A stretch of DNA of 64,000 nt from NCBI RefSeq assembly GCF_007828865.1, contig NZ_VIVK01000001.1, positions 558,001-622,000 of the forward strand, given 5' to 3'. Source of the stretch: Kribbella amoyensis. Its GTDB lineage: Bacteria > Actinomycetota > Actinomycetes > Propionibacteriales > Kribbellaceae. Positions 44,256-53,143 of this stretch are shown here, one piece after another. Positions within the stretch are counted from its first letter, which is position 1; each line of letters begins with the position of its first letter. The notes under the pieces are model-generated. The model did no database searches and was not told where the DNA came from. It saw only the letters and a list, made by a program, of their open reading frames with translations. The position numbers and the translations under genes were made by a program.

Positions 44256-44660
44256 TCAGGAGAGCACCGCGAGCGCGTCGATCTCGACCAGCATCTGCTC
44301 CAGCGGCAGCCCGGTGAACACCGTCGTCCGGGACGGCAGCACGCCGCTCGGGGTCCGGGCGCCGACGAACTCCGCGTACGCCTCGTTCATCGGGCCGAAG
44401 TCGTCCCGGGTGGTCAGGTAGACGCGCAGCATCACCACGTCGTCGAAGGTCGCGCCGCCGGCGGTGAGGATCGCCTCGATGTTCTGCAGGACCCGGGTGG
44501 TCTGCGCCTTCACGTCGCCCTCGAAGACGAACGAGCCGCCGGCCGGATCGACCGAGCCCTGGCCGGACACCTGCAGGATGTTGCCCTTGCGGACGCCCTG
44601 CGAGAAGACGGGCATCGGCGGGGGCGCGTCGGGGGTGGAGACGACGGTCTTGTCGGACAT
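44256..44660 (-). CDS. RidA family enamine/imine deaminase
   Basis: The 134-residue protein is a Rid/YjgF-family member. It shows GVRKGNILQVSGQGSVDPAG, VVMLRVYLTTRDDFGPMNEA and the terminal PSRTTVFTGLPLEQMLVEID, in which the Arg is the expected substrate-carboxylate ligand. RidA proteins hydrolyse reactive enamines such as 2-aminoacrylate released by PLP-dependent dehydratases. That suits the fold-III PLP enzyme encoded across the divergent promoter. It follows the IclR gene by 34 nt. Confidence 0.88.
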   Translation of the reverse strand: MSDKTVVSTPDAPPPMPVFSQGVRKGNILQVSGQGSVDPAGGSFVFEGDVKAQTTRVLQNIEAILTAGGATFDDVVMLRVYLTTRDDFGPMNEAYAEFVGARTPSGVLPSRTTVFTGLPLEQMLVEIDALAVLS

Positions 44661-44694
44661 CGGTACGAGCCTCTCGATCGAAGGTGCTGACGTA

Positions 44695-45429
44695 CTAGTT
44701 GTAGTCGACGGCGATCGCGGCGGTGGTGGCGAGGAGCTCGGGGAGCAGGTCGAGGACCTGGTCGTAGCTGAGCAGGAGGTCGGGGACGGAGACCGAGACG
44801 GCGCCGAGGACCCGGCCGGAGCGTTCGGTGATCGGGGCGCCGATGCAGTTGATGAACGACTCGTGCTCGGCCCGGTCCTGCGCCCAGCCCTGAGCGCGGA
44901 CCCGGTCCAGCTCGGCGCGCAGTTCGTCCGGCCCGGCGATCGTGTTCGGCGTGAACCGCCGGTACTCGATCGACGCGAGCAACGCTTCCCGCTGCCGCTC
45001 GGGCTGCGCGGCCAGCAGGACCTTGCCGACCGCGGTGCAGTGCAACGCGGCCGGGACGCCGACCTGCGAGTACATCCGTACCGACTGCACGCTGTCGAGC
45101 TTGTCGATGTAGACGACCTGCCCGTTCTCGTACGTCGCCAGGTGCACCGTCTGTCCGGTCCGCTGGTTCAACCGCTGCAAGTGGGGCGCGGCCACCGCCC
45201 GTACGACGTGTTGCTCGCGGGCCGTGTCGGCCAGGGCGAACAACCGCGAGCCCAGCCGGTACCGGTGGGCCTCGTCGCGGCGGACGAAGCGCTCCGCCTC
45301 CATCGTGCGCAGCAACCGCAGCACCGTCGTCTTGTGCACGTCCAGCTCGGTCGCGAGCTGGTCCAGCGACCGGTCTCCCTCACCCAGGCTGACCAGGATC
45401 TGCAGCGCCCGGCCGAGGCTCTGGCTCAC
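44695..45429 (-). CDS. IclR family transcriptional regulator
   Basis: The 244-residue protein has an N-terminal winged helix (residues 3-65: SLGRALQILVSLGEGDRSLD, LATELDVHKTTVLRLLRTME). A C-terminal effector domain follows (TGQTVHLATYENGQVVYIDK, LHCTAVGKVLLAA, INCIGAPI). IclR proteins sense small organic acids and often repress adjacent catabolic genes. The open frame is longer, but GTG 45429 overlaps the kinase TGA (GTGA). It probably controls the divergent promoter region at 46446-46574. Confidence 0.92.
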   Translation of the reverse strand: MSQSLGRALQILVSLGEGDRSLDQLATELDVHKTTVLRLLRTMEAERFVRRDEAHRYRLGSRLFALADTAREQHVVRAVAAPHLQRLNQRTGQTVHLATYENGQVVYIDKLDSVQSVRMYSQVGVPAALHCTAVGKVLLAAQPERQREALLASIEYRRFTPNTIAGPDELRAELDRVRAQGWAQDRAEHESFINCIGAPITERSGRVLGAVSVSVPDLLLSYDQVLDLLPELLATTAAIAVDYN

Positions 45430-46445
45430 ACCGCACCGCCGACCAGTGCCGGGGAGGTGACCCCCTCGGGACCGACTCGGGTCGCCGCCCACTGACCGTC
45501 GTCGCAGGCCAGCAGCGCCTCGCGCAGCGTGGACTCGAGCGGAGTCGCGTGGTCGTTCGGTACGGCGAGCACCGTGGCCGCGTTGAGGTGCCCGAGCCGC
45601 AACCGCTGCTCCATCGGCAACCCCTGCAACGTCCCGGCGAGGAAGCCGGCGGCGAACGCATCCCCGGCACCGACCGGCTCCACCACGTCGACGGTCAACG
45701 CCGGCACCGCGGTACTGCGGCCGTCCGGCTCGAGCGAGACGGCGACGTGGGCGTCGGACTTCACCACAATCGTTGCCCTGGGCCCCAACAGTTCACGCAG
45801 CGCGGCCGGCTCGCCGGTGCCGGCGAACACCTCGGCCTCGTCGGCCCCGATCAGCACGAAGTCGGCCGCCCGCAGCAACCGCCACAACGGCGCCGGGTCC
45901 TGGTCCCGCCAGAGCACCGGCCGCCAGTTCAGGTCGACGCTCAGAGCGAAGCCGTACGTGTCGCGCAGCTCGGCCAGCCGGTCCAGCATCGCCGCCGAGG
46001 TCGCCGAGATGGCCGCCGTGATCCCGGTGGTGTGCACGACGTCCGCCGCGGCCAGCCGATCGCGGACCGCGGGCCGGTCGAGGAACGACGGGTCCATCGC
46101 GGCGGCGGCGGACCCGGACCGGTAGTAGTGCATCCGGCTGCGGCCGTTCATCGTGTGCTTCACGTAGAGCCCGGTCGGCCGGTCCGGGTCGTCCTCGACC
46201 GCGCCGACCTCGACGCCGCGGGCAAGCAGATCGCGCCGGACGTGCCGGCCGAACCCGTCGTCGCCCACCCGCGAGATCCAGCCCGTCGGGATGCCCAGCC
46301 CGGCCAGGCCACCGGCCACGTTGCACTCGGCGCCACCGACCGATCGGCGGAACGACTCCACGTCCTCGAGCGGAGCCCCGGTGTCGCCGGACAGCACCAC
46401 CATGGCCTCCCCCAGACAGACCGCACGGGGCAGCAGCTCGACCAT
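45426..46445 (-). CDS. PfkB family sugar kinase (probable 2-keto-3-deoxygluconate kinase)
   Basis: The 339-residue protein has both PfkB signatures: the N-terminal GGAECNVAGGLAGLGIPTGW and the C-terminal PVGAGDAFAAGFLAG with catalytic Asp262. The substrate lid region KHTMNGRSRMHYYRSGSAAA resembles 2-dehydro-3-deoxygluconate kinases. A KDPG aldolase is encoded in the same locus, so the likely reaction is KDG plus ATP to KDPG; that assignment is inference from fold and context. The ATG at 46445 has AGAGGA seven nucleotides upstream. Confidence 0.85.
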   Translation of the reverse strand: MVELLPRAVCLGEAMVVLSGDTGAPLEDVESFRRSVGGAECNVAGGLAGLGIPTGWISRVGDDGFGRHVRRDLLARGVEVGAVEDDPDRPTGLYVKHTMNGRSRMHYYRSGSAAAAMDPSFLDRPAVRDRLAAADVVHTTGITAAISATSAAMLDRLAELRDTYGFALSVDLNWRPVLWRDQDPAPLWRLLRAADFVLIGADEAEVFAGTGEPAALRELLGPRATIVVKSDAHVAVSLEPDGRSTAVPALTVDVVEPVGAGDAFAAGFLAGTLQGLPMEQRLRLGHLNAATVLAVPNDHATPLESTLREALLACDDGQWAATRVGPEGVTSPALVGGAV

Positions 46446-46487
46446 GAGGGGGTCCTCTCGGAGACCGTCGACGGGAATTCTGGCGCG

Positions 46488-46527
46488 ATGCTACAAGCGT
46501 GTGCCAGAATGCGCAACGGACGTTGCG
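46488..46527 (-). promoter_or_regulatory. Kinase-iclR-ridA promoter with overlapping palindrome
   Basis: On the minus strand TTGCGC (46516-46511), a 17-nt spacer and TAGCAT (46493-46488) form a promoter. The perfect palindrome CGCAACG-GA-CGTTGCG at 46512-46527 covers the -35 element. A looser TTGC/GCAA repeat lies beside it (46524-46538). The place suits repression by the IclR protein and would also affect the divergent operon. Confidence 0.55.
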
Positions 46528-46574
46528 TTACATGCAATCAAGCCGCCCACCGGCCCCTCGGGAGGACCGCCGCC

Positions 46575-47954
46575 ATGTCAGCAGCCGAGTCAGCCAACGG
46601 GTCAGCGACCGAGCCAGGGATCACGTCGGCAGCCGCGCGGACCACCTACGATGCCGCCGCCGTCGCCGCGTTGGCCGAGCAGTCGGTGAGCTGGCAGGAC
46701 AAGGCGGTACCGCCGGCCTGGTGGGGTCGCCGGATCACCGACATCCTCGCCGAGAAGCCGCGGTTGTCCGCCCTGCCGACCCCGCTGCTCACCCTCTCCG
46801 CGACCGGGATGCGGCACAACCTCACGACCATGGCCGGCTGGTGCGCCGAGCACGGGGTCGAGCTCGCGCCGCACGGCAAGACGACGATGGCGCCCGCGCT
46901 CTGGGCCGCTCAGCTCGACGCTGGTTGCTGGGCGATCACGCTGGCCAACGGATTCCAGCTCGGCGTCGCCCGGGCGTACGGCGTGGCCCGGGTGATCGTC
47001 GCGAACGAAGTGATCTCGCCGCTGCAGCTGCGCTGGATCGCCGACGAGCTGGCCGCGGATCCGGCGTTCGAGGTGTTCGTCTGGGCCGACTCGGTCCGCA
47101 CCGTCGAGCTGATGGAGGCCGCCCGCTCGGCGTACGTGGGGCCGGACGCTCGTCCGTTGGACGTGCTGGTGGAGGTCGGCGGCGCGAACGGCCGGACCGG
47201 GGTCCGCGACACCGGGACCGGGGTGGCCGTGGCGAAGGCGATCGCGGATTCGTCGACGCTTCGGCTCGCCGGGGTCGCCGGGTACGAAGGCGCGATCGCC
47301 CGGGGTGCCGACGAGGCCGGGCTCGAACACGTCCGCGCGTACCTGCGGGACCTGGCCGCGATCCACCTCCGTGCCCAGGAGGACGGCCTGTACGACGAGG
47401 GCGTGGTCCCCGTCGTCAGCGCGGGCGGCAGCGCGTACTTCGAGCAGGTCGCGAAGGTGCTTGCCCCACTCGGCGAGACGGGTGCGCGCGTGGTCCTGCG
47501 GTCCGGCGCGTACATCGCCCACGACGACGGGTACTACCGGGAGATCTCCCCGCTCGGCTCGCATCCGCGGACCGACGGCGACCGGCTCGTCCCGGCGATG
47601 CACGGCTGGGTCCGGATCACCTCGCAGCCCGAACCGGGACTCGCGATCTTCGACGCCGGCAAGCGGGACCTGCCCTTCGACGAGGGCCTGCCCGAACCCC
47701 AGCTGCTCCGGCCCCGCAGTCCCGGCGAGGCGCCCGCGCGACTGGACGGGATGACCGTGGTGAAGGTGAACGACCAGCACGGGTTCCTCCGGTTCGACGA
47801 GGCCGGGCCGGCTCCGCTGGTGATCGGCGACGAACTGCGGGTCGGGCTCTCGCACCCGTGTACGGCGTTCGACAAGTGGGGCCTGATCCCGGTGGTCGAC
47901 GATCCCGACGCCGAGGACCCGGTCGTGGTCGACCTCGTCCGGACCTTCTTCTGA
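46575..47954 (+). CDS. Fold-III PLP enzyme, D-serine dehydratase/D-threonine aldolase-like
   Basis: The 459-residue protein has an alanine-racemase-like barrel. Lys102 lies in LAPHGKTTMAPALWA, matching the PLP lysine of the D-serine-dehydratase-like family, and GGANGRTGVRD and VSAGGSAYFEQV follow. The C-terminal domain carries the HPC pair (LSHPCTAFDKW) that holds the catalytic zinc in eukaryotic D-serine dehydratase. It should eliminate ammonia from a beta-hydroxy D-amino acid. With KDG kinase and aldolase genes nearby, D-glucosaminate is a plausible substrate. The frame is open upstream; ATG 46575 has GGGAGGA before it. Confidence 0.85.
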   Translation: MSAAESANGSATEPGITSAAARTTYDAAAVAALAEQSVSWQDKAVPPAWWGRRITDILAEKPRLSALPTPLLTLSATGMRHNLTTMAGWCAEHGVELAPHGKTTMAPALWAAQLDAGCWAITLANGFQLGVARAYGVARVIVANEVISPLQLRWIADELAADPAFEVFVWADSVRTVELMEAARSAYVGPDARPLDVLVEVGGANGRTGVRDTGTGVAVAKAIADSSTLRLAGVAGYEGAIARGADEAGLEHVRAYLRDLAAIHLRAQEDGLYDEGVVPVVSAGGSAYFEQVAKVLAPLGETGARVVLRSGAYIAHDDGYYREISPLGSHPRTDGDRLVPAMHGWVRITSQPEPGLAIFDAGKRDLPFDEGLPEPQLLRPRSPGEAPARLDGMTVVKVNDQHGFLRFDEAGPAPLVIGDELRVGLSHPCTAFDKWGLIPVVDDPDAEDPVVVDLVRTFF

Positions 47955-47967
47955 CCCGGCGGCCGCG

Positions 47968-49578
47968 ATGACCGACCTGCTGATCTCCGGCGCGACCGTG
48001 CTGGACGGGACCGGCGCGCCCGCGTTCCGGGCCGACGTGACGGTCGACGCCGGCCGCATCACCGCCGTCGATCCACCGGGTCGCCCGGTCGAAGCCGGCC
48101 AGGTGATCGACGCGACCGGGCTGACCCTGTGTCCCGGCTTCATCGACATGCACGCGCACTCCGACCTGCAGATCCTGGCGAACCCGGACCACACCGCCAA
48201 GGTCAGCCAGGGCGTCACCCTCGAGGTCCTCGGCCAGGACGGGCTGTCGTTCGCGCCGGTCGACGACACCACCCGGTCCGTCCTGCGCCGGCAGATCGCG
48301 GGCTGGAACGGCGAGCCCGCCGACTTCGAGTTCACCTGGTCCACCGTCGCGGGGTACCTGGACCGGCTCGACCAGGGCATCGCCTGCCACGCGGCGTACC
48401 TGGTCCCGCAGGGCACGCTGCGGATGCTGGTGGTCGGCACCGAGAACCGGCGAGCCACCCCGGCCGAGCTGGCCGAGATGAAGCGGCTGCTCGCCGAGGG
48501 CCTGGACCAAGGGGCCGTCGGGATGAGCAGCGGGCTCACGTACACCCCGGGCATGTTCGCCGACACCGACGAGCTGGTCGCGTTGTGCGACGTGGTGGCC
48601 GCGTACGGCGGGTACTACAGCCCGCACCAGCGCTCGTACGGGCTGGGCGCGCTGGCCGCGTACGAGGAGATGGTCGAGGTGGCCCGCCGGTCCGGGTGTG
48701 CGTTGCACCTGACCCACGCGACGATGAACTTCGAGCCGAACCGCGGCCGCGGCGGGGACCTGGTCGCGCTGATGGACGCGGCCCTCGCGGCCGGGGTGGA
48801 CCTGACCACCGACACCTACCCGTACTTGCCGGGGGCAACCACCTTGGCGGCGATCCTGCCCAGCTGGACCGCCGAGGGTGGCCCGGACGCGCAACTGGCC
48901 CGGCTCCGGGACCCGGCCGACCGGGAGCGGATCACGTACGAGCTCGAGCAGGTCGGCAGCGACGGGTGCCACGGCTGCGTCACCGACTGGGCCACGATCG
49001 AGATCGGCGGCGTCCGGAATCCCGCGCTGGAAGGGGCCGTCGGCAACACGGTGGCCGAGATCGCGGCCGGGATCGGCAAGCCGCCGGCCTGGGTGTTCTT
49101 CGACCTGCTGGTCCGCGACGAGCTGGGCACCACGATCCTGCAGCACGTCGGCCACGAGGAGAACGTGCGCGCGATCATGCGGCACCCGACCCACACCGGC
49201 GGCTCGGACGGGATCCTGGTCGGCGGCAAACCGCACCCGCGTGCCTGGGGCACCTTCCCGCGGTACCTCGGCCACTACACCCGCGACCTCGGGGTGCTGG
49301 AGCTGGCCGACTGCGTGCACCACCTGACCGGGCGGCCCGCGGCCCGGCTGGGACTGACCGACCGCGGCCTGGTCCGGACCGGGTACCACGCGGACCTCGT
49401 GCTGTTCGACCCCGCAACGGTGCGGGACACCGCCACCTTCGACGATCCCTGCCGGCCGGCCGAGGGCATTCCCTGGGTCCTGGTCGGCGGGACCGCCGTG
49501 ATCGAGAACGGACGCCGGACCGACGCCCTGCCGGGCCGCGCGATCCGTCGTCCCCCTGGGAAAGGACCGACCCGATGA
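47968..49578 (+). CDS. D-aminoacylase-like amidohydrolase
   Basis: The 536-residue metal-dependent hydrolase has the HxH ligand pair in FIDMHAHSD (His62, His64), further His in SPHQRSYG and LHLTHATMN, and a late Asp in TGGSDGILVGGKPHPRAWGT. It resembles N-acyl-D-amino-acid deacylases. However, the place of the family's zinc-binding Cys (GNCG in classical enzymes) reads GQDG, with Asp91. It lies 13 nt after the PLP-enzyme gene and overlaps the aldolase gene by 4 nt. Removing the acyl group from an N-acyl-D-amino-sugar acid would feed the next step; this is inferred. Confidence 0.85.
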   Translation: MTDLLISGATVLDGTGAPAFRADVTVDAGRITAVDPPGRPVEAGQVIDATGLTLCPGFIDMHAHSDLQILANPDHTAKVSQGVTLEVLGQDGLSFAPVDDTTRSVLRRQIAGWNGEPADFEFTWSTVAGYLDRLDQGIACHAAYLVPQGTLRMLVVGTENRRATPAELAEMKRLLAEGLDQGAVGMSSGLTYTPGMFADTDELVALCDVVAAYGGYYSPHQRSYGLGALAAYEEMVEVARRSGCALHLTHATMNFEPNRGRGGDLVALMDAALAAGVDLTTDTYPYLPGATTLAAILPSWTAEGGPDAQLARLRDPADRERITYELEQVGSDGCHGCVTDWATIEIGGVRNPALEGAVGNTVAEIAAGIGKPPAWVFFDLLVRDELGTTILQHVGHEENVRAIMRHPTHTGGSDGILVGGKPHPRAWGTFPRYLGHYTRDLGVLELADCVHHLTGRPAARLGLTDRGLVRTGYHADLVLFDPATVRDTATFDDPCRPAEGIPWVLVGGTAVIENGRRTDALPGRAIRRPPGKGPTR

Positions 49579-50204
49579 CCACCCTGGACCTGCTCCGCGA
49601 AGACAAGGTGCTGAGCGTCGTCCGCGCGCCGGCGATCGACGACGCGCGCGACCTGTGCGCCGCCCTCGTGGCCGGCGGCATCCGCGTGATCGAGCTGACC
49701 TTCACCACCCCGGACCTGCCCCGGCACCTGGAGCGGGCCGCGTCCGGTGACACCGGGGCCGTGGTCGGCGCCGGCACGGTCCAGACCGCGGCGCAGGCCA
49801 AGACCGCGGTCGACGCCGGCGCGCAGTTCCTGGTCACGCCCGGCCAGGGTCCGGAGGCGGCCGAGGTGGTCGCCGCCGCGCACGCCGCCGGGGTACCGAT
49901 CGTGCTCGGCGCGCTCACCCCGTCGGAGGTGATGACCGCGGTCGCGCTCGGCGCCGAGGCGGTGAAGATCTTCCCGGCCCACCAGTTCGGCCCGAAGTAC
50001 TTCAAGGACCTGAACGGCCCGTTCCCCGGGGTCCCGCTGGTGCCGTCCGGTGGGGTGAACGCGGGCAACGCCAAGCAGTTCCTGGACGCCGGCGCCCTGG
50101 CCGTCAGCGCCGGGACCGACGTCGTCTCCCCCGCCGACGTGGCCGCCGCGAACTGGTCCACCATCACCAGCAAGGCCAAGGCCTTCTGCGCCACCCTGAG
50201 CTGA
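49575..50204 (+). CDS. KDPG/KHG aldolase family protein
   Basis: The 209-residue class I aldolase has the family pattern IRVIELTFTTPD with Glu40, GAGTVQTAAQAKTAVDAGA, and the Schiff-base Lys131 in AVKIFPAHQFGPKYFKDL, followed by PLVPSGGVNAGN. It cleaves 2-keto-3-deoxy-6-phosphogluconate to pyruvate and glyceraldehyde 3-phosphate, or acts on related keto acids. The ATG at 49575 overlaps the previous stop by 4 nt and has AAGGA upstream. It is the last clear step of this catabolic operon. Confidence 0.92.
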   Translation: MTTLDLLREDKVLSVVRAPAIDDARDLCAALVAGGIRVIELTFTTPDLPRHLERAASGDTGAVVGAGTVQTAAQAKTAVDAGAQFLVTPGQGPEAAEVVAAAHAAGVPIVLGALTPSEVMTAVALGAEAVKIFPAHQFGPKYFKDLNGPFPGVPLVPSGGVNAGNAKQFLDAGALAVSAGTDVVSPADVAAANWSTITSKAKAFCATLS

Positions 50205-50217
50205 CAAGCTGTCGGCC

Positions 50218-50784
50218 ATGGGCAGAGTGAGCGTGGTCAACTTCCAGTCCCTCGACGGGGTGATCCAGTCCGTGCTGTCGGCGGACGAGGACCGTGACGG
50301 CGGGTTCGCGCACGGCGGCTGGGTGCTGCCGTACACCGACGAGGTCGTGGCCGCGTTCATGCAGCGGCACACGACCGCCGCCGGTGGGTTGCTGCTCGGC
50401 CGCCGGACGTACGAGGCGTTCGCCGCGACCTGGCCGTACGCCGACCAGGCGGAGCCGGCCGTCGCCGCGATGAACCGGATCCCCAAGTACGTCGCCTCGA
50501 CCACGCTGACCGAAGGCTCATGGGTGAACACCACCGTCCTCGGCGCCGACCTCCCCACGGAGATCGGCGCCCTGCCGGAGGACCTCGTCGTGTTCGGCAG
50601 CAGCGTCCTCCTGCGGACCCTGCTCGAGCACGGCCTGGTCGACGAGCTGCACCTGCTGACGTTCCCGGTGGTGCTCGGTGCCGGCAAGAAGATGTTCGGT
50701 GACTTGCCGGCACCGCTGCCGCTGACCCTGACCGGGACGACGACGTCACCGTCCGGCGTGGTGATCGCGAGCTACACCGCCTGA
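50218..50784 (+). CDS. DHFR/RibD C-terminal domain family protein
   Basis: The 188-residue protein begins MGRVSVVNFQSLDGVIQ and has GGLLLGRRTYEAFAATWPY, VVFGSSVLLRTLLEHGLVDE and LHLLTFPVVLGAGKKMFGD, the typical pattern of YwjB/RibD-like reductases. Their substrates are mostly unknown. It starts 13 nt after the aldolase stop without a clear ribosome-binding site. Its 3' end overlaps the convergent PheRS-like gene by 13 nt. Confidence 0.85.
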   Translation: MGRVSVVNFQSLDGVIQSVLSADEDRDGGFAHGGWVLPYTDEVVAAFMQRHTTAAGGLLLGRRTYEAFAATWPYADQAEPAVAAMNRIPKYVASTTLTEGSWVNTTVLGADLPTEIGALPEDLVVFGSSVLLRTLLEHGLVDELHLLTFPVVLGAGKKMFGDLPAPLPLTLTGTTTSPSGVVIASYTA

Positions 50785-51899
50785 CCGATGAGCTCCTGGA
50801 CGAGGCCCTCGTGCAGTTCGCGGTAGACCTGGTCGCGGAGCACGTTGGCCTCGGTGTCGGTGAGCGTCCGGTCCAGCGGGCGGAGGATCAACCGGATCAG
50901 CGCGTTCCGCTGTCCCGGGACCAGCTGGAGCCTCTTCCTGGCCGGCTCGGGCAACTCGTCGTACGCCGTCTCGCTGATCAGCTCGACCGTCTCGGCGGCG
51001 TCCGCGTCGGGTCCCAGGGCCCGGCGGACCCGGTCGCCGAGGACCTCCAGGGACAGGTCCGCGTCCGGTCCCACCACGACGGACAGATCCCGGCGGACCG
51101 GCGGCATCGCGGACACCGGCTGGTACGGCAGCAGGTCGAGCATCTGCCCGGCGATCCGGGGATCCGTCGACCGGAGCAACCGGATGTCCGGGATCCCCTT
51201 GCGCAGCATGAGCAACCGGTCGAGCCCCGGTCCCATCGCGAGGCCGGTCCACGACTCGTCCAGGCCGGCGCGGCGCAGGACCTGGGGTGCGGCGACCCCG
51301 CATTCGCCGATCTCGATCCACTCGCCGTCGAGCCGGACGTCGATCTGCCGGCCGTGGATCGTGTACGGGTGCACCGCGGGGACCGTGCGGTACGTCCGGC
51401 CGGGCAGGACGGTCTCGACCAACCGGGCGATCATCTCTTCCAACTCGGGCTCCCCCAGCTCGACGTTGCGGCTGAGTCGCCACAGGTCAAGCTGGTGCGG
51501 GGTCCCGGTGTGCTGCCAGTCCACCGAGTCCCGCCGGTAACAGATACCGGCGCAGATCATCAGCACGTCGGTCGCGTCGGAGCTCGCGAGTTCGCGCAGC
51601 GCCGGCGGGATCATCGCGGACGTGTGCGACCGCAGCACCTCGCCGTCCGACGCGTACCGGGTGTACCGCGCCTCCCGGGTCACCGCGCCCGCGGCGTACC
51701 CGAGGTTGTCGTAGTTGTCGGCCAGCGGGACGACCGGGTGATCGCGCCGGGTCCAGATCTCCGTGTACGGCCAGGCCTGGCCGAGCGCGGTCCGGAGCGA
51801 GTCGACGATCAGCTGGATCGCGTGCGGACCCCCGGCCGGATCGGCGAGGTCGCGCAGACCCAGGGCGGCGTACAGTTCTTCCAAGGACAGGACAGCCAT
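50772..51899 (-). CDS. Single-chain phenylalanyl-tRNA synthetase-like protein
   Basis: The 375-residue protein combines the class II catalytic core of PheRS alpha with a C-terminal ferredoxin-like anticodon-binding (FDX-ACB) domain (about residues 265-375, PPVRRDLSVVVGPDADLSLE). This is the layout of monomeric mitochondrial PheRS. Motif 2 reads ICYRRDSVDWQHTGTPHQLD and motif 3 GPGLDRLLMLRKGIPDIRLL. The usual bacterial F-HQ is here TPHQ, and the GFAFG pocket sequence is GLAMG. The change suggests altered amino-acid choice. No beta subunit lies nearby. ATG 51899 has GGAGA seven nucleotides upstream. Confidence 0.85.
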   Translation of the reverse strand: MAVLSLEELYAALGLRDLADPAGGPHAIQLIVDSLRTALGQAWPYTEIWTRRDHPVVPLADNYDNLGYAAGAVTREARYTRYASDGEVLRSHTSAMIPPALRELASSDATDVLMICAGICYRRDSVDWQHTGTPHQLDLWRLSRNVELGEPELEEMIARLVETVLPGRTYRTVPAVHPYTIHGRQIDVRLDGEWIEIGECGVAAPQVLRRAGLDESWTGLAMGPGLDRLLMLRKGIPDIRLLRSTDPRIAGQMLDLLPYQPVSAMPPVRRDLSVVVGPDADLSLEVLGDRVRRALGPDADAAETVELISETAYDELPEPARKRLQLVPGQRNALIRLILRPLDRTLTDTEANVLRDQVYRELHEGLVQELIGQAV

Positions 51900-52065
51900 G
51901 AGGTGTTCTCCAAGCGGTGAGCGGTACGAGGGACGAAGACACCCCGACCGGCCGCGGTCACCTCAGGAGAGAGCGCAGCTACGGCTCACCCCGTCGGCAC
52001 CACTGTGCCGGCCGGGGCGCGGAAATCGCTGCCCGTGCTGCTTCACGGTCTCCACTCTACCGGGA
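51900..52065 (-). promoter_or_regulatory. Structured leader of the PheRS-like gene
   Basis: Several hairpins can form in transcription order: CGGCAC-AGTG-GTGCCG, ACGG/CCGT and GACCG-CGGC-CGGTC. Near the end, AGGTGACCGCGG recalls a T-box (AGGGTGGNACCGCG) but lacks the central GG, and CGTCCC follows it. A T-box-like or attenuator role is possible. A promoter for the divergent oxidase gene must lie here too, but I could not place it. Confidence 0.3.
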
Positions 52066-52111
52066 CGCGCCAATCTCCCGCCCGCCCTTTTCGGATGCGA
52101 GGATCGACGGC

Positions 52112-53143
52112 ATGCGATGGATCGACAGCCTGGAAGCGGCCGCGGCCGAGAAGCTGCCCGAGCCGGTGCACCGGTACTTCCGGCAGGGCTCGGCGGGCGG
52201 AGTCAGCGTGAGCGAGGCGGTGGCGGCGTGGAACGCGTACCGCTTCCGGCCGCACATCCTCACCGACGTGAGCACCGTCGACCTGCGGACCACGGTGCTC
52301 GGTACACCGGTCGACGTCCCGGTCCTGGTGGCTCCGTCGACGCTCCAGCTGCAGGCCGATCCGGGCGGCGAGGTGGCGATGGCGGCCGGCGTCGCGGCGG
52401 CCGGGTCGGTCGTCGGGGTGTCGAGCAACGCGGGCAGTACGTTCGCCGACATCGCCGCGGCCGGGGCGCCGTGGTGGCTGCAGATCTACGTCGTCCGCAA
52501 CCGCGAGGTGACGGTACGGATGCTCGACGCGGCCGTGGAAGCCGGAGCGCGGGCGATCGTCCTCACCGCGGACACCCCGGTGGTCGGCCGCAAGGAGGAC
52601 GACGGGCCGACGGTCTGGGAGACGGTCCAGGCGACCCACGGCCTGGCCAACGTGAACGAGGACGACTACACCGACGACGACCTCGGCAAGGCCGACGACC
52701 TCGGGCCGGACGTGATCGGCTGGCTGGCCGAGCGGACCGGGCTGCCGGTCGTGGTGAAGGGCGTACTCCGCGGCGACGACGCGAAGCGCTGCGCGGACGC
52801 GGGGGCGGCCGGCGTGATCGTGTCGAACCACGGCGGCCGGCAGCTGGACGGCTCGATCGCGACCGCCCGGGCCCTTCCCGAGGTCGCCGAGGCCCTCACC
52901 GGGACCGGCACCGAGGTGTACGTCGACGGCGGCATCCGACGTGGCGAACACGTGCTGGCCGCGTTGGCGCTGGGTGCGCGGGCCGTCTTCGTCGGGCGGC
53001 CGGCGTTGTGGGCGCTCACCGTCGGCGGGAGCGCCGGGGTGACCCGGATGCTCACCGACCTCGGCGACGAGCTCGACCACGCCCTCCGCCTCGTCGGTGT
53101 CCCCCGTGCCGAGGACCTGACGCCCGACCTGCTCGTACCGTGA
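52112..53143 (+). CDS. FMN-dependent alpha-hydroxy-acid oxidase
   Basis: The 343-residue protein is of the lactate/glycolate oxidase family. It has PVLVAPSTLQLQADPGGEVA (FMN site), the tyrosine of WLQIYVV, LPVVVKGVLRGDDA, and the catalytic His and substrate Arg in VSNHGGRQLDG, then VDGGIRRGEHV. It oxidises an L-2-hydroxy acid to the keto acid. The frame is open upstream, but ATG 52112 with GAGGAT before it gives the family start. It is divergent from the PheRS-like gene. The substrate is unknown. Confidence 0.88.
   Translation: MRWIDSLEAAAAEKLPEPVHRYFRQGSAGGVSVSEAVAAWNAYRFRPHILTDVSTVDLRTTVLGTPVDVPVLVAPSTLQLQADPGGEVAMAAGVAAAGSVVGVSSNAGSTFADIAAAGAPWWLQIYVVRNREVTVRMLDAAVEAGARAIVLTADTPVVGRKEDDGPTVWETVQATHGLANVNEDDYTDDDLGKADDLGPDVIGWLAERTGLPVVVKGVLRGDDAKRCADAGAAGVIVSNHGGRQLDGSIATARALPEVAEALTGTGTEVYVDGGIRRGEHVLAALALGARAVFVGRPALWALTVGGSAGVTRMLTDLGDELDHALRLVGVPRAEDLTPDLLVP

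Follow-up and report, generated by a model that had tools for sequence, protein, structure and literature searches.

SrmL, a single-chain relative of phenylalanyl-tRNA synthetase found in Kribbella and in huge phages, as a candidate accessory PheRS

Phenylalanyl-tRNA synthetase (PheRS) has been described in three forms: the heterotetramer of bacteria, that of archaea and eukaryotes, and the monomer of mitochondria (PMC3275996). In the bacterial enzyme an FPF loop stacks on the phenylalanine ring, while human cytosolic PheRS, which has Asn410 and Tyr412 in place of FPF and uses Phe438, still selects phenylalanine (PMC3275996, PMC12447630). Human mitochondrial PheRS bonds the hydroxyl of m-tyrosine through Gln124 and Glu159 (PMC3275996), and Thermus thermophilus PheT reads G34 of the anticodon via Asp729, Tyr731 and Ser742 (PMC9976931). 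Huge phages carry up to 15 synthetases of their own (Al-Shayeb et al. 2020, PMC7162821); the string 'phenylalan' is absent from that paper's main text, so far as the text was available, and 'synthetase' is absent from the text of a report on wastewater huge phages (PMC10747093). One further family with a PheRS-like core has an entry in NCBIfam, NF051887, under the name 'PheS-related mystery ligase SrmL', and its record as shown states no function. A member of that family is encoded in the window considered here, by which is meant the whole 64,000-nucleotide stretch of Kribbella amoyensis DNA that was analysed, and the phage members and tRNA context described below are additions to that record.

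Architecture, family and paralogy

The window protein is a full-length member of NF051887 (506.8 bits for a cut-off of 300, over positions 1-349 of the 349 in the profile) and its class II core is recognized by PF01409 (115.2 bits, cut-off 19.8). It stays below the cut-offs of the bacterial PheS equivalog TIGR00468 (108.6 against 237.45), the mitochondrial pheS_mito equivalog TIGR00469 (116.9 against 258.35) and the PylRS model (30.7 against 178), and synthetase inventories built on the TIGRFAM PheRS cut-offs would therefore miss it. An AlphaFold2 model made from a 42-row alignment (pLDDT 92.8, pTM 0.89) has human mitochondrial PheRS as its top solved-structure matches, with Z of about 37 over 340-342 residues at 2.0-2.2 Å. 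The alignment spans model residues 1-368, so that both domains and their order agree; the initial annotation was thus right to see a PheRS-alpha-like core and an FDX-ACB domain combined in a single 375-residue chain, with the proviso that the FDX-ACB part is sub-threshold in Pfam, and the monomeric, mitochondrial-type architecture that it proposed is upheld by the same comparison (Z 37, 340 residues, 2.1 Å). Bacterial PheS chains match the core only (Z 22.6-27.5). PylRS (Z of about 21) and SepRS (Z 20.8) have a related core fold, but the best matches of SrmL in both sequence and fold are PheRS instead.

With the mitochondrial monomer (FARS2 type, TIGR00469) SrmL shares the domain order, the fold over its full length and the lack of an editing domain, yet the two are 27% identical in the structural alignment, and SrmL has HPY rather than FPF in its pocket and a family-specific insert in the FDX-ACB-like part. 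With the bacterial PheST heterotetramer (TIGR00468/TIGR00472) it has the class IIc core in common, but it is a single chain that lacks the N-terminal part of the PheS of its own genome and has no room for a B3/B4 editing domain. That genome (8.12 Mb in 8 contigs) encodes a canonical PheS on contig 3 at 256972-257742, and the FDX-ACB domain of PheT lies on the same contig at 254444-254725. As an ordinary PheS and PheT are also present, SrmL is a paralogue, which is what had been supposed when a search for pheST elsewhere in the genome was proposed. The features discussed here are located in Table 1.

Table 1. Positions in the window of srmL, its parts, its leader and its divergent neighbour
Feature	Position	Strand	Basis
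srmL, 375-residue monomeric PheRS-like protein	50772..51899	(-)	ATG start; NF051887, PF01409, AlphaFold2 model against human mitochondrial PheRS
Class II catalytic core, about residues 55-252	51144..51737	(-)	PF01409 matched residues 83-252; alignment with own PheS; invariant columns
Pocket loop H177-P178-Y179-T180, replacing bacterial FPFT	51360..51371	(-)	A3 conservation alignment; own PheS has FPFT
FDX-ACB-like putative anticodon-binding domain, residues 263-365	50805..51113	(-)	PF03147 sub-threshold; hhalign; structural alignment; consensus
Conserved 5' leader of srmL	51900..52059	(-)	window and 23/23 Kribbella-type loci; A6 leader alignment; folds
27-codon leader ORF, GTG start, TGA stop at 51963-51965	51963-52046	(-)	leader sequence
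-10-like TAGAGT	52054-52059	(-)	leader sequence
FMN alpha-hydroxyacid oxidase-like gene (name by reading), divergent neighbour	51917..53143	(+)	same side in 21/23 Kribbella-type loci

Other routes to a function gave little. PADLOC returned no hit for SrmL, leaving a reading as a defence gene unsupported, and in PHROGs the window protein and two phage copies match phrog_19793 only, a family of unknown function. A literature search on the family name yielded work on a PheS-based counterselection marker and nothing on SrmL, and the titles and opening parts of abstracts found for monomeric PheRS paralogues and for PheRS self-resistance with Kribbella do not mention it. The thought that the name denotes a spiramycin gene was dropped, as no literature was found that pairs SrmL with spiramycin.

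Pocket and putative anticodon-binding domain

The core of SrmL has YRRD as motif 2, PHQ-D, the HPYT pocket loop and GLAMGPGLDR as motif 3. In the A3 conservation alignment, which has 42 rows from bacteria and phages, the residues for ATP and the amino group (R122/R123, Q136, D138 and R228, as judged against the genome's own PheS and human mitochondrial PheRS) are invariant, and the dN/dS of 25 distinct pairs of Kribbella-type copies is 0.06-0.19; on these two grounds SrmL is neither a chance reading frame nor a gene in decay. The altered pocket of the initial annotation is also there: where the genome's own PheS has FHQ, FPFT and GFAFG, SrmL has PHQ, HPYT and GLAMG in the alignment. The Phe of FHQ is replaced by Pro134, an RYTR-type motif stands where PheS has its DTF-type motif, and the FPF loop typical of bacterial and mitochondrial PheRS gives way to HPY, F258 and F260 in the forms used in PMC3275996 corresponding to H177 and Y179. 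Within the family the new loop is fixed, with H177, Y179 and T180 in 42 of 42 rows and P178 in at least 90%. Ala203, which seems to match Phe438 of the human cytosolic enzyme, is non-aromatic. At the positions of Gln124 and Glu159 of human mitochondrial PheRS, placed by counting along a chain numbered 8 below the residue numbers, SrmL has Ile97 and Asp138. The pocket of SrmL is thus a third design, and it does not of itself decide whether phenylalanine is the substrate.

The C-terminal part is recognizable with less ease. Pfam PF03147 (FDX-ACB) gives it 24.1 bits, below the cut-off of 31.1, and hhalign of the C-terminal parts of 42 SrmL sequences with the C-terminus of Escherichia coli PheT gives a probability of 83% and an E value of 9e-6. 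The contacts made to G34 by T. thermophilus PheT are not conserved: at the Ser position stands the invariant Asn332, and the loop there holds the conserved family-specific insert, of consensus LPxxARxRLG, which precedes it. Asp729 and Tyr731 presumably fall in a DxY motif. Because the G34-reading residues are not kept, the tRNA choice of SrmL is not to be read from homology alone, and its anticodon reading may differ from that of PheT.

Occurrence in bacteria and in huge phages

In a sample from the same order SrmL occurs in 60 of 391 genomes (E up to 1e-40; the 311 genomes without a match are not named in the output), and among the matches listed 38 of 38 genomes of the same genus carry it, the present one included. 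In a sample from the phylum only 2 of 396 genomes rise above the NF051887 cut-off, with in addition one copy split in two around a stop, and none of 14 control genomes does so. A relative is encoded in 347 of 386 candidate stretches of GTDB contigs; the best 80 of these 347, at 53% identity or more, are mostly from Actinomycetota, the closest named loci among them being from Kribbella (81-85% identity) and the non-actinobacterial ones from records labelled Myxococcales, Polyangiaceae and Deltaproteobacteria. Records titled Streptomyces sp. SID13031 (NZ_JAAGLV01) have a Kribbella-type srmL in Kribbella gene order (L091), together with a second, diverged copy (L109); the organism name looks wrong. 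Plasmid matches are few, 3 in 72,556 records (Glutamicibacter, Azotobacter and Corynebacterium diphtheriae). On the Glutamicibacter plasmid srmL adjoins cmx with tet(33) farther along, and on the C. diphtheriae plasmid (OV884290.1, L067 11582-12229) a partial match to query residues 155-371 lies between erm(X) and tet(65).

Outside Kribbella no constant company was found for srmL. The initial annotation had raised a link to a peptide product, which the gene neighbourhoods do not sustain: even the most frequent neighbour family accompanies srmL in just 12 of 81 clustered loci, some of which are the same region fetched twice, and an operon partner was rejected on the same count. The commonest family, in those 12 loci, is an ABC-type ATPase (named by reading), which is found divergently within 600 nt upstream of srmL only in loci of the Actinopolymorpha type (L068, L070, L071, L074) and of Planobispora (L117, L130, L147). 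The families that follow it in frequency occur almost solely in Actinopolymorpha-type loci, the exception being response regulators, which are seen in 8 loci with no fixed position. The FMN oxidase-like gene of Table 1, whose true start is probably downstream of 51917, is regarded as a neighbour only, with no functional partnership claimed. Elsewhere in the window, 44256-50204 holds a cluster that reads like the use of D-amino acids and keto-sugar acids (names by reading only), with genes for RidA, IclR, a PfkB-type kinase, D-amino-acid deaminase, D-aminoacylase and KDPG aldolase; the last two accompany srmL, at varying distance, in 21 of 23 Kribbella-type loci.

As to tRNA, the genome has a single tRNA-Phe(GAA) gene among 54 tRNA matches and none of undetermined anticodon, and the idea of a dedicated extra tRNA for SrmL was therefore rejected. 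In the bacterial loci that were scanned for tRNA genes, no tRNA-Phe lies near srmL. Separately, nine tRNA genes, several of them low-scoring, lie within 8 kb of contig 1 (1128500-1136500, L275), for Thr, Pro, Arg, His, Leu, Gln, Ser, Tyr and Arg, perhaps in an integrated element next to tRNA-Thr.

The phage context is the main reason for calling SrmL a PheRS. Matches occur in 14 of 50,697 phage records, one of them, LR745206.1 (634,780 bases, 39.9% identity), over at least 80% of the query, and four IMG/VR contigs of 415-578 kb (G785-G788) encode a full-length SrmL of 42-46% identity; a scan of IMG/VR that used just the window protein as query picked up no relative, whereas alignment-based scans found these. 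One phage copy scores 434 bits with NF051887. In each of these five records (415-635 kb) SrmL is the only strong PF01409 protein, at 110-124 bits. There are two weak extras, a GlyRS-like ORF (by reading) in G786 at 21.1 bits and a LysRS ORF in G785 at 18.2 bits, both marked by the tool as over the low cut-off of 19.8, the 18.2-bit one together with its neighbours. The records have 61 (LR745206), 68 (G785), 49 (G786), 59 (G787) and 71 (G788) tRNA matches, and each of the five shows a pair of tRNA-Phe(GAA) genes in the stretches read. In G786 srmL occupies the interval that separates this pair, and in G788 the second tRNA upstream of srmL is a tRNA-Phe. No tRNA-Phe adjoins srmL in G785, G787 or LR745206, and in the last two its surroundings are free of any tRNA for about 10 kb. 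A fifth IMG/VR contig (L179, IMGVR_UViG_3300047323_000673), of 181 kb, carries SrmL and a tmRNA with no tRNA match, and may be bacterial.

How far tRNA context is informative can be gauged in G785, where 15 synthetase ORFs were picked by eye in 80 of its 508 kb. SrmL and seven other synthetases (Thr, Asn, Asp, Pro, Gln, Ser and Tyr) are above their NCBIfam cut-offs, and seven more ORFs (Val, Lys, Trp, His, Gly-, Ala- and Arg-like) are weaker or partial. The ORFs for Lys-, Pro-, Gln- and SerRS, 4 of the 15, start less than 300 nt behind their cognate tRNA, so that context there carries some information; the other 11, SrmL included, have no cognate tRNA directly in front. The ThrRS, ProRS and ValRS ORFs of this phage (IMGVR_UViG_3300049793_000366; L220-L223), at 346, 368 and 509 residues, are much shorter than their profiles, as if without editing parts.

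A tree check with mitochondrial sequences, also proposed at the outset, gave a clear answer in one respect only. All 46 SrmL rows cluster together and are separated from the 24 PheS rows with a support of 100 (11 of 35 loci, that of E. coli among them, yielded no PheS by motif and were dropped). In a quick, unrooted tree the human mitochondrial core, whose identity to a bacterial PheS reaches 41%, is long-branched (1.31) and joins the PheS side, and the one-chain design of SrmL and mitochondrial PheRS may be shared or convergent, as the trees fit either. Phage SrmL rows are deep in the quick tree and, with low support, nested among bacterial rows in a more careful one made without the human row; transfer between phages and bacteria in either direction fits both. 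A phage origin of mitochondrial PheRS was considered and left aside, since the quick tree, with no outgroup to all three lineages, does not decide it.

The Kribbella leader and the likely role of SrmL

Upstream of srmL in the window the order is a -10-like box, a 27-codon ORF, a hairpin and a ribosome site, and then srmL. The window and 23 Kribbella-type loci have in common a leader end TGAGGTGACCG(C/T)GGC, the TGA of which lies some 55-70 nt before the srmL start, and a 27-codon ORF with ATG or GTG as its first codon ends at that TGA in 22 of the 24 leaders (not in L097 and L109). In most rows a TANNNT-like -10 is about 7 nt before the start of this ORF, a spacing that suggests that it is leaderless. 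The peptide ends in S-C-C-C-A-L-S in most and in S-R-S-C-A-L-S in the window, with the codon for the last Cys constant in 22 of 22. Mycobacteria have leaderless ORFs that respond to Cys (Canestrari 2020, as mentioned in PMC9094748), and the Kribbella arrangement resembles them. It was not found outside Kribbella when stretches of up to 320 nt before srmL were scanned; short ORFs containing CC in L086, L149 and L154, the only ones there, have no GAGGTGACC motif and were treated as chance.

Mean column identity in the A6 alignment, which holds 19 of the 24 leaders, is 79%, and 41-51% of srmL silent sites differ between the window and 13 others. Variable columns of the leader ORF number 10, 7 and 6 by codon position, with no excess at third positions, so that the RNA is probably under more constraint than the peptide. 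RNAalifold gives one long hairpin in which no pair is changed on both sides, so that covariation neither supports nor refutes it, and the window leader's own fold has a z of -1.9, a stability that 8 of 200 shuffles equal. In the genome a DNA-level search with the leader found itself (E 8e-74) and seven short matches (E 0.013-0.57). T-box control, suspected by eye, was discarded, as Rfam (601 bases, E up to 10) gave three matches, none of them a T-box; the leader has no match there to any bacterial regulator.

The reading that we favour, with moderate confidence, is that SrmL is a monomeric accessory PheRS that lacks editing and acts on tRNA-Phe. Its class II core would use ATP to activate an amino acid, most probably phenylalanine, and then transfer it to tRNA-Phe, which the C-terminal FDX-ACB-like domain would hold as in mitochondrial PheRS. 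For huge phages SrmL would be the PheRS of their own kit of tRNAs and synthetases. In Kribbella it would be an accessory enzyme beside PheST, acting on the cell's single tRNA-Phe, and probably switched on in particular conditions via the conserved leader. In favour of this reading are the full-length fold match, the retained ATP and amino-group residues, the phage context, the presence of srmL in all listed genomes of the genus, the low dN/dS and the single tRNA-Phe gene. Counting against it are the altered pocket and G34-reading residues, the scores below the PheRS equivalog cut-offs, and the three phage records and the scanned bacterial loci in which srmL has no tRNA-Phe beside it. The architecture, conservation, paralogy, phage context, single tRNA-Phe gene and leader are observed; that SrmL is catalytic, with phenylalanine as substrate, tRNA-Phe as acceptor and a conditional backup role, is what we infer. 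Of the several functions first floated, that of a backup enzyme is still among the best.

A refinement of this reading, unlikely though worth bearing in mind, is that SrmL is a phenylalanine-specific resistance or stress isoform that rejects inhibitors or toxic analogues such as m-Tyr and DOPA, for which the patchy, transferable occurrence of a single gene, present also on plasmids with one copy beside cmx, would be apt, as would the loss of the two m-Tyr-bonding residues of the mitochondrial enzyme (PMC3275996) to Ile97 and Asp138. However, no resistance or biosynthesis gene recurs beside it in the 81 clustered loci, it is a core gene of Kribbella, and the C. diphtheriae plasmid copy matches residues 155-371 only. 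That a different amino acid is used was part of the initial annotation and is possible but weakly supported; a quite improbable form of it is that SrmL loads tRNA-Phe with another aromatic or modified amino acid, as a deliberate or stress-time replacement at Phe codons. The His/Tyr pocket, invariant across bacterial and phage rows, and the RYTR-type motif are in keeping with this, but huge phages need normal phenylalanine at Phe codons, show no other strong PheRS core and carry SrmL along with tRNA-Phe genes, and the human cytosolic enzyme shows that a pocket without FPF can select phenylalanine (PMC3275996, PMC12447630).

The database name 'mystery ligase' and the altered G34-reading residues would also suit an amino-acid ligase whose target is a small molecule or a protein and not tRNA. 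Many synthetase paralogues are ligases of that kind (GenX/EpmA, MshC type), but these usually lose the anticodon domain; in SrmL a region like that domain is kept in the aligned family rows and tRNA arrays surround 3 of the 5 phage copies, and this reading is doubtful. A bolder version of the PheRS proposal is a long shot: a fourth form of PheRS, common to huge phages and bacteria, with its own pocket and its own loop for reading the anticodon, that would load tRNA-Phe with something other than plain phenylalanine, or would do so only under stress, offering an alternative reading of Phe codons switchable via the leader.

If SrmL is indeed an accessory PheRS, it would be a fourth form of the enzyme, present in bacteria and huge phages, and NCBI's 'mystery ligase' family would have a function. 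It would also explain how huge phages can encode a compact PheRS rather than the two large chains of PheS and PheT, and a small, possibly orthogonal PheRS tool would be to hand. Why a second PheRS is retained in some bacteria would likewise become a directly testable question.
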